Position numbers and translations under genes: made by a program
In this document: positions 4,784-40,114 of the stretch, piece after piece
Layout: each line of letters starts with the position of its first letter
How positions within the stretch are numbered: position 1 is the first letter of the stretch
Assembly (NCBI GenBank): GCA_902777385.1
Contig: CACYTP010000004.1
Coordinates: 124,001 to 188,000, forward strand
Length of the DNA stretch: 64,000 nt
Direction: 5' to 3'
Origin: an uncultured bacterium
GTDB lineage: Bacteria > Cyanobacteriota > Vampirovibrionia > Gastranaerophilales > Gastranaerophilaceae
The notes under the pieces: model-generated
Seen by the model: only the letters and a program-made list of their open reading frames with translations
What the model was told of the DNA's origin: nothing
Databases searched by the model: none

Positions 4784-4909
4784 TCGAAGCACTCGGTTAT
4801 ACCGAGATTTTATATTTATTTGTCAATTGTACCGTGCGGCTCGGTGTTTCCTCTCCTCGGAAGATACTTAATCTTCCTCGTCGGCAGAGTCAAGCTGCAC
4901 CACATCCCG
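4784..4909 (-). repeat. 126-bp pseudo-tRNA unit upstream of tRNA-Pro
   Basis: Read on the minus strand, the unit starts with a 19-nt copy of the tRNA-Pro 5' end (4909-4891, one mismatch, C to T in the D-stem). A 44-nt hairpin insert follows (4890-4847). The sequence then resumes at CAC, as at the start of the anticodon arm, diverges, and reaches a TTGACA box at 4826-4821 that probably drives the real tRNA. The 3' half of the tRNA is missing. The offset to the real tRNA is exactly 126 bp, the same period as the units upstream of tRNA-Thr(GGT) at 39644-39895. Confidence 0.75.
4847..4890 (-). ncRNA. 44-nt hairpin module inside the pseudo-tRNA-Pro unit
   Basis: Layout on the minus strand: ACTCTGCCGA, a stem with core GGAAGAT/ATCTTCC around loop TAAGT, then GAGAGGAAA. 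CTCT can pair with AGAG to close the module. The module has the same length and fixed flanks as the two at the tRNA-Thr locus, but a different, compensated stem. Expression is plausible because a consensus promoter lies upstream at 4943-4971. The function is unknown. Confidence 0.45.
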
Positions 4910-4942: not shown

Positions 4943-4971
4943 ATTCTATTTTAAAAATAAATCAAAGTCAA
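4943..4971 (-). promoter_or_regulatory. Consensus promoter upstream of the pseudo-tRNA-Pro unit
   Basis: On the minus strand TTGACT (4971-4966) is separated by exactly 17 bp from TAGAAT (4948-4943). Transcription would start about 25 nt before the tRNA-5'-end copy and read through the hairpin module toward tRNA-Pro. Confidence 0.6.
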
Positions 4972-38934: not shown

Positions 38935-39128
38935 TTTAAGAAAGAGGTTACAAGACCTCTTTTTTTTATGGGCGTTTTGATGACGAGAACTTCCGTTTGA
39001 AGTTCGAGAGGATTTCCGTACGGCATTTATGCCGGATAGCGAACAGATTGAGCATACTGTGGCAAAGCCACAAATGCGAAACTCTGTGAGCGTGGAGGAA
39101 ATCCAAGACAGGCTTCTAACGCCCACCA
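38935..39128 (+). repeat. tRNA-Val downstream unit 1 (194 bp)
   Basis: The unit opens with the tRNA terminator. Next come an inverted T-arm/acceptor copy (TGGGCGTTTTGATGACGAGA at 38968-38987), a direct GAAGTTCGAG, nested hairpins (GGATTTCC/GGAAATCC, GGCAT/ATGCC, TGTGGC/GCCACA) and a copy of the tRNA tail from CTTCTAACG through the CCA. No coding potential is credible. Confidence 0.7.
38941..38968 (+). terminator. Terminator directly after tRNA-Val
   Basis: AAAGAGGT/ACCTCTTT around TACAAG, followed by TTTTT. An identical copy occurs at 39135-39162 after the duplicated tail. Confidence 0.9.
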
Positions 39129-39283: not shown

Positions 39284-39469
39284 TGGGCAGGGGTGGATTA
39301 ATCACTTCGCTCACGTTAAACGTGCCTTCGGTTGATTGCTCCATAATTTTTAATTATTCCGCAATCAAGCCTACGCACTTCGCTCGCTCGTTCCGAACCA
39401 ACTACAGGGCTTTGCCCTGTGTGGTTCTCATCCACCTACTAAAAAAGACCCTTTCGGGTCTTAAAAGTT
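39284..39469 (-). repeat. tRNA-Tyr downstream unit (186 bp)
   Basis: Read on the minus strand, tRNA-Tyr is followed by a terminator and then an inverted T-arm (GGTGGATGAGAACCACACAG). Next are hairpins (CAGGGC/GCCCTG, and a TTGATTGC/GCAATCAA stem) and finally a copy of the tRNA 3' tail ending CCACCCCTGCCC at 39285. The block GAACCxCACAGG-hairpin-CCTGT...GGTTCGG is shared with tRNA-Lys unit 1. Confidence 0.6.
39441..39463 (-). terminator. Terminator of the Thr-Thr-Tyr tRNA cluster
   Basis: On the minus strand TAAGACCCGAAAGGGTCTTTTTT forms a GACCC-GAAA-GGGTC stem with six T. Confidence 0.9.
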
Positions 39470-39571: not shown

Positions 39572-39643
39572 TGCCTTTGATGGGATTTGAACCCATGGCC
39601 TCTCCCTTACCAAGGGAGTGCGCTACCCCTGCGCCACAAAGGC
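39572..39643 (-). tRNA. tRNA-Thr (GGT)
   Basis: Acceptor GCCTTTG/CAAAGGC, D-stem GCGC/GCGC, anticodon stem CTCCC/GGGAG around TTGGTAA (anticodon GGT), T-loop TTCAAAT. The CCA is not encoded. Two truncated copies of its 5' end lie upstream at 126-bp steps. Confidence 0.95.
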
Positions 39644-39769
39644 TCATTACCTTCAAAGTTTTATTTTATTGTCAATTCGCACTTTCTGATATTTCTACCA
39701 AGGGAGTGCTTCCTCTCGAAAAACAATACTCAATTGTTTTTCTCGGCAGAGTCCCTGCGTCACAAAGGC
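39644..39769 (-). repeat. 126-bp pseudo-tRNA-Thr unit, proximal copy
   Basis: On the minus strand it comprises 17 nt of the tRNA-Thr 5' end (39769-39753, one mismatch, GGCGC to GACGC), a 44-nt hairpin insert (39752-39709) and the anticodon-arm 5' half CACTCCCTTGGTA (39708-39696). A spacer with TTGACA then leads to the real tRNA. The 3' half of the tRNA is absent. It differs from the distal copy at only 3 of 126 positions. Confidence 0.8.
39709..39752 (-). ncRNA. 44-nt hairpin module, proximal tRNA-Thr unit
   Basis: ACTCTGCCGA, then a perfect 10-bp stem GAAAAACAAT/ATTGTTTTTC around loop TGAGT, then GAGAGGAAG. The length and flanks match the tRNA-Pro module, while the stem bases differ in a compensated way. 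The A/T-rich stem could also act as a weak terminator. Confidence 0.45.
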
Positions 39770-39895
39770 TCATTACCTTCAAAGTTTTATTTTGTTGTCA
39801 ATTCGCACTTTCTGATATTTCTACCAAGGGAGTGCTTCCTCTCGAAAAACAATACTCAATTGTTTTTCTCGGCAGAGTCCCTGTGCCACAAAGGC
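39770..39895 (-). repeat. 126-bp pseudo-tRNA-Thr unit, distal copy
   Basis: Same layout as the proximal copy. The tRNA-5' segment (39895-39879) carries a different single mismatch, GGCGC to GGCAC. Upstream of it lies the spacer after tRNA-Thr(TGT), with TTGATA at 39927-39922 in place of TTGACA. Confidence 0.8.
39835..39878 (-). ncRNA. 44-nt hairpin module, distal tRNA-Thr unit
   Basis: It is identical in sequence to the proximal module at 39709-39752. Both copies keep the stem intact while the surrounding tRNA-5' copies have each picked up a D-stem-breaking change. Confidence 0.45.
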
Positions 39896-39957
39896 TCATT
39901 ACCTTCAAAGCTTTATTTTATTATCAATCAACTCTTTCTGATATTTCCCAGAAAGAA

Positions 39958-40029
39958 AGCCGGCAATAGGAATCGAACCTACAACCTACGGTTTACAAAA
40001 CCGTTGCTCTACCGTTGAGCTATGCCGGC
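39958..40029 (-). tRNA. tRNA-Thr (TGT)
   Basis: Acceptor GCCGGCA/TGCCGGC (TTGCCGGC end), D-stem GCTC/GAGC, anticodon stem ACGGT/ACCGT around TTTGTAA (anticodon TGT), T-loop TTCGATT. The discriminator is T and the CCA is not encoded. It is first in the Thr-Thr-Tyr cluster. Confidence 0.94.
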
Positions 40030-40114
40030 TTACGTTTCCCATTCTATTAAGAACATAATTAAATGTCAAGAACTTTTTTCTGTTAGTAGTATAATTTTTG
40101 TAAGGAGATTGCTT

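Follow-up and report, generated by a model that had tools for sequence, protein, structure and literature searches.

A small covarying hairpin in partial tRNA copies of Gastranaerophilales, a candidate miniature mobile element

Between two tRNA-Thr genes of the window (the whole 64,000-nucleotide stretch of DNA analysed here) lie two tandem units that resemble interrupted tRNA genes, raising the question of what these units are and what the sequence that interrupts them does. The units belong to a Thr-Thr-Tyr tRNA operon on the minus strand, which has a promoter-like TTGACA-N17-TAGAAT at 40041–40069, tRNA-Thr(TGT) as its first gene (39957–40030) and an intact tRNA-Thr(GGT) at 39572–39643. A preliminary description had placed two 126-bp units with three differences between these genes, and the coordinates are confirmed at 39770–39895 for the distal unit and 39644–39769 for the unit adjoining tRNA-Thr(GGT). 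Each consists, in order, of tRNA-Thr nt 1–17 (39879–39895 and 39753–39769), a 43-nt hairpin that we call type A (39836–39878 and 39710–39752), tRNA nt 23–36 (39822–39835 and 39696–39709) and a spacer, all on the minus strand. Since the tRNA sequence resumes at nt 23 past the hairpins, exactly GTAGC, the 3' strand of the D-arm, is missing.

A third hairpin, also reported in the preliminary description, is present on the minus strand at 4848–4890 in the leader of tRNA-Pro(TGG), where it follows a copy of nt 1–19 of that tRNA (4891–4909) within another 126-bp unit (4784–4909). Upstream of this unit is a promoter-like TTGACT-N17-TAGAAT (4943–4971, minus strand), found in near-identical form in a second genome, G004. 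The hairpin ends had been correctly recognized as fixed, as ACTCTGCCGA and GAGAGGAA occur in all aligned copies. Four stem pairs were said to differ in a compensated way between the Thr and Pro hairpins; the compensation holds and the count rises to five, the additional pair being the outermost (G-C versus C-G). Two more stem pairs are tandem G.A mismatches in the Pro hairpin. Such a tandem G.A (CGAG/GAGG) substitutes two stem pairs in approximately half of the 43-nt class, including the copy at 4848–4890, and is an alternative helix rather than decay.

The draft genome comprises 37 contigs, and two near-identical units in tandem could be explained as an assembly artefact or a chance repeat. 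A covariance model was built from 18 hairpins, the window copies included; it returned these copies with E-values of 2e-15 to 4e-15, and the next-best match in the window was not below 1.6. The preliminary description had allowed that relatives might contain no more copies, which proved not to be the case, as the model detected the hairpin in 369 of the 383 genomes of the same family of Gastranaerophilales, an order of non-photosynthetic Cyanobacteria. Hundreds of independent assemblies thus contain it, many in the same architecture and with E-values near 1e-15, and the family also includes a negative genus, represented by two nearly complete genomes with zero matches at E ≤ 1. Recurrence across genomes refutes the artefact, which we regard as having practically no chance of being correct. 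In the source genome there are 11 copies at E < 0.001, ten of which lie no more than about 300 bp from a tRNA gene (Pro, Thr twice, Leu(TAA) twice, Leu(TAG) three times, and Glu and Phe on the 3' side), and six fully scored genomes have 13 to 75 copies each. The preliminary description missed that the hairpin is a dispersed, probably mobile element rather than a tRNA feature: it is also found in other repeats and, in one genome, within an open reading frame, and its presence varies between orthologous loci.

Beyond the family, confident matches were confined to two neighbouring families of the order, where they lie beside tRNA-Met, -Leu, -Pro and -Lys. This association suggests a long-lived habitat, and we list it against the mobile interpretation. 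A pattern search matched 32 of 97 genomes, compared with none for the control pattern read backwards. An occurrence across bacteria was considered and discarded, as the pattern matches outside Gastranaerophilales are without the stem, save for records apparently of this lineage. One of these, JAISCP010000122.1 (L056), is titled Heliobacteriaceae, has the hairpin and matches G031:C41, from a genome placed in the family; the title is probably a misassignment. Carriage by phages was likewise rejected, since all pattern matches in viral contigs are stemless and the hairpin was seen in none of these contigs.

To what extent does the stem reflect selection? Hairpin length varies from 43 to 48 nt across copies. 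In the 43-nt class, two-sided changes affect 8 of 14 pairs (18 hairpins), and the covariation score is 0.362, compared with 0.124 for shuffled alignments and at most 0.161 for slid ones; the 47-nt class behaves alike. Two-sided stem changes (35 and 46) far outnumber one-sided ones (1 and 6, respectively). On the tRNA-sense strand, stem mismatches comprise 21 G.T and four A.C among 107 distinct hairpins, not all of which are independent copies. Were the structure to act as a duplex, or on both strands, G.T and A.C should be equally frequent, so the bias indicates that it is the sense single strand that folds, either as RNA or as ssDNA. The covariation and this bias bear out the earlier suggestion of selection on a folded structure. 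The motif had also been called unrecognized, and it remains so, since a scan of Rfam 15 recovered tRNAs alone and left the hairpin unmatched even at E ≤ 1. A search of the open literature for repeats of the Gastranaerophilales lineage found no description of it.

To define the sites at which the hairpin is found, the replaced sequence was read by aligning copies that carry the hairpin to the intact tRNA at the same locus. The pentamers replaced were GCAGC (13 cases), GTAGC (10), GCAGT (6), GGAAT(C) (6), GGAGT(C/T) (5) and GGAGC (1), together with a few longer losses. The target rule that emerges from these alignments is GNRRY, mostly in the D-arm of the partial tRNA copy. The insertion junctions are A-CTCTGCCG and GAGAGG-AA. 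Comparison of empty and filled sites shows that about 5 nt are replaced without a short duplication; genome G057, for example, has an empty GAGTGGC-GTAT-TAGACAGC alongside a filled GAGTGGC-A[hairpin]-TAGACAGC. Among 108 near-tRNA copies, which were picked by match strength so that the proportions are not unbiased, all 86 on the 5' side are oriented as the tRNA, and both orientations occur on the 3' side.

Orthologous loci provide evidence of gain. At the tRNA-Pro locus, the source genome and G004 have the promoter, unit and tail in common. The G004 pseudo-copy contains one more hairpin, whose loop (TTCGGCGAA) is of a different class, and the same site in the source genome is still GCAGC. Occupancy of the Thr operon also varies, with two units in the source genome, two in G008 (one decayed), one each in G004 and G002, and none in G009 and G010. 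In the last two genomes (L364 and L363, respectively), the stretch between tRNA-Thr(TGT) and tRNA-Thr(GGT) holds 11 nt copied from the 5' end of tRNA-Thr, GCCYTTGYGGC-AGTTA, with no hairpin; this is either what remained once a hairpin had been lost or a stage that precedes insertion. Near-identical hairpins are found within a larger dispersed repeat in G184. Between genomes, hairpins that share a tRNA are scarcely more similar (0.681) than those at different tRNAs (0.670). Clustering by genome was considered and set aside as a weak signal (0.721 versus 0.681, 13/200 permutations), and this weakness counts against the mobile interpretation.

Nesting extends to a reading frame in one case. At L035 (G012:C22), positions 1077–2090 on the minus strand, a 337-aa open reading frame contains, in frame and flanked by GCGGATTTG, a type-B-like repeat (see below) in which a type A hairpin is nested. 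The sole homologue of this frame, a 290-aa protein of G021, is without the element; it was rejected as a clean empty site because a variable linker surrounds the position. In the window, 39029–39058 near tRNA-Val matches the G012 stretch, with GAACA where G012 has the hairpin.

The type B repeat is a separate observation. It is found in the window at 38935–39128 (plus strand, after tRNA-Val) and 39284–39469 (minus strand, after tRNA-Tyr), with more examples in L314–L348. At least 11 of 41 tRNA genes are followed by it: a structured non-coding body of about 110–190 nt, behind which the last 15–19 nt of the tRNA are repeated directly, usually from within the T-loop onwards. At its start the body repeats the tRNA 3' end in inverted orientation; it runs through GAGAAC, GGTTCGA, GAGNGCG, CGCAGNCNCGTT and CAAGAC, and has helices that appear to covary. 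We found no Rfam entry for it.

A short covarying palindrome in many copies invites comparison with REP elements mobilized in trans by a RAYT, a Y1 transposase. Genes for Y1_Tnp are present in 123 of the 383 family genomes, and the core of the target, GNAG, is similar to the GTAG at which RAYTs cut (PMC3733652). However, neither end of the hairpin has a GTAG or CGTC tag, and Y1_Tnp is absent from the source genome and from the hairpin-rich genomes G184 (52 copies), G031 (42) and G053 (35). Moreover, 23 of 25 RAYT loci have no hairpin nearby, and at the other two the hairpin is one-sided and beside a tRNA or tRNA fragment. The RAYT of G016 is flanked by a different, GTAG-tagged palindrome. Mobilization by RAYT was rejected on the strength of the hairpin-rich genomes without Y1_Tnp and of this other tagged palindrome; the explanation is largely refuted and we consider it very improbable. 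The G016 locus (L375, G016:C9, approximately 405–1010) has its Y1 (RAYT-like) transposase gene between inverted GTAG-tagged palindromes, GTAGGGTGCAATTTATTGCACC, and is a REP-like system distinct from the hairpin.

Direct repeats of tRNA ends, both 5' and 3', beside intact tRNAs might alternatively be remnants of tRNA-targeted integrative elements, in which case the partial copies would be att sites of tyrosine integrases. Against this, the units are gene-free and only about 100–126 bp long, their spacers at any one tRNA cannot be aligned between genomes, and the hairpin occurs at many tRNAs as well as at non-tRNA sites. This origin for the units is, in our estimation, very improbable.

We also asked how the units relate to transcription of the tRNAs beside them. 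The TTGACA of the unit spacer, which the preliminary description had pointed out, was considered as a promoter of each unit and rejected, since it lies 9–10 nt from the tRNA at some loci, is missing in the Thr spacers of congeners, and well-formed promoters stand upstream of the units; it is probably not a promoter. The sequence TTGACA-N17-TAGAAT precedes tRNA-Thr(TGT) in all seven genomes compared (the source genome and six congeners), in one with a diverged spacer. Promoter-like sequence upstream of the units would place them within transcribed leaders and spacers, and we infer that they would be co-transcribed in the pre-tRNA. The idea that copies start exactly at the RNase P site was not upheld, as homology fades over 0–20 nt upstream. 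A motif, TTGACAATTRAATA, recurs just before the mature 5' end of many tRNAs (for example in L339, L359 and L363), and is also found at the hairpin-free tRNA-Tyr; it may serve processing or be a relic of a promoter.

The RNA of such a unit is predicted to fold back on itself. The tail that follows the hairpin pairs with its own partial tRNA copy better than swapped tails do (4.74 versus 4.27, 0/500), and a second hairpin in the tail exceeds shuffled sequences (0/200). The predicted fold of the Thr unit is cloverleaf-like (z of −1.9), with its own spacer closing the pseudo acceptor strand. At tRNA-Pro(CGG), units have the same folded tail across several genera, although their spacers are unalignable. 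This conservation fits purifying selection and repeated templated formation equally well, and it speaks against the mobile interpretation. The fold-back itself may result from template switching, or it may have been selected since it keeps the decoy strand off the real tRNA.

Because the pseudo-copies fold back beyond chance, the main and serious rival is that pre-tRNA leaders contain the unit as a structured RNA with a function in processing, folding or control of tRNA levels, the hairpin being the conserved core of that RNA rather than a selfish sequence. The strong covariation on one strand, the tail kept at tRNA-Pro(CGG) where the spacer is not, the complementarity to the own tail, the cloverleaf-like Thr fold and the position of the units between a conserved promoter-like sequence and a tRNA all accord with such a role. 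A leader RNA of this kind is less easily reconciled with a set of carrier tRNAs that varies by genome, two congeners without the hairpin in the Thr operon, a copy number ranging from 0 to 75, many copies in non-tRNA repeats, and one copy in an open reading frame. On balance we judge this explanation unlikely, albeit one to be taken seriously.

Overall, the hairpin is probably a miniature mobile element of the non-autonomous kind, accumulating in the tRNA pseudo-copies found in pre-tRNA leaders and spacers. The element would act as a folded single strand of tRNA sense, RNA or ssDNA, and would enter new sites by substituting a GNRRY-type pentamer, such sites being offered by tRNA D-arms (GCAGC, GTAGC) and, on the opposite strand, by T-arms (GGAAT, GGAGT). 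Insertions in a working tRNA would be lost, so that those which survive sit in partial copies beside an intact gene. There the hairpins could build up, multiply in tandem and be transcribed within the pre-tRNA leader or spacer, and the copies would fold back through an outer stem, the hairpin and the second hairpin, presumably sparing the real tRNA from mispairing with the decoy 5' strand. Movement would call for an enzyme, and no mobilizing gene for the hairpin was found, which counts against mobility. It is possible, but rather unlikely, that the hairpin moves via an RNA copy of the tRNA transcript: template switching or reverse transcription would place a copy of a 5' tRNA fragment with the hairpin next to the gene from which the fragment came, and the resulting fold-back pseudo-tRNAs would be released as stable tRNA-like RNAs. 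If true, this route would define a gene-free, tRNA-borne, retro-like element of about 45 nt. As a miniature mobile element, the hairpin would be among the smallest described, with no known enzyme. Since its presence varies among closely related gut genomes in a highly constrained type of gene, both the mobility of the hairpin and its influence on tRNA processing are directly testable.

How does the hairpin compare with known small repeats? It works like the SDRs of Nostoc, REPs and RPEs, yet by the features tested is a member of none. SDRs, reportedly described by Elhai et al. in 2008 (a study cited in PMC3116915) from Nostoc and relatives, are very small mobile repeats of Cyanobacteria, 21–27 nt long with eight named sequences, with compensated stems, nested and possibly RNA-mediated. 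They have no known enzyme, and they are not known to live in tRNA pseudo-copies or to replace GNRRY pentamers. The hairpin likewise has a compensated stem and nests in other repeats, but it is longer (43–48 nt) and differs in sequence and hosts. RPEs (Rickettsia palindromic elements) are about 100–150 bp and, like the hairpin, are dispersed palindromic elements for which no transposase is known. Residence in frame within open reading frames characterizes RPEs; a single hairpin, that of G012, lies in frame, nested in the larger repeat of the 337-aa frame. The hairpin differs from RPEs in sequence and in its tRNA-leader location. RPEs also bear a CGTC tag (PMC3733652). As in REPs and REPINs, the palindromes are short, dispersed and non-autonomous, and a folded single strand is active (PMC3116915, PMC3733652). 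In the REP super-families, however, one end of the palindrome carries an unpaired tetranucleotide, GTAG or CGTC (PMC3733652), whereas the hairpin is untagged, flanks none of 25 RAYT loci in the REP manner and replaces its target pentamer. A REPIN consists of two inverted REPs forming one hairpin, whereas the present copies are single or in direct tandem. Unlike a MITE, which has terminal inverted repeats and a target-site duplication, the hairpin does not show this combination. With tRNA-targeted integrative elements (att), the units have in common that partial tRNA copies flank an intact tRNA, but they are without cargo or integrase, the hairpin interrupts the D-arm of the partial copy, and that copy is folded back on itself. 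To the class of SDRs, REPs and RPEs, whose mobility is still poorly explained, the hairpin contributes an element that is very small, present family-wide and strict in replacing its target.
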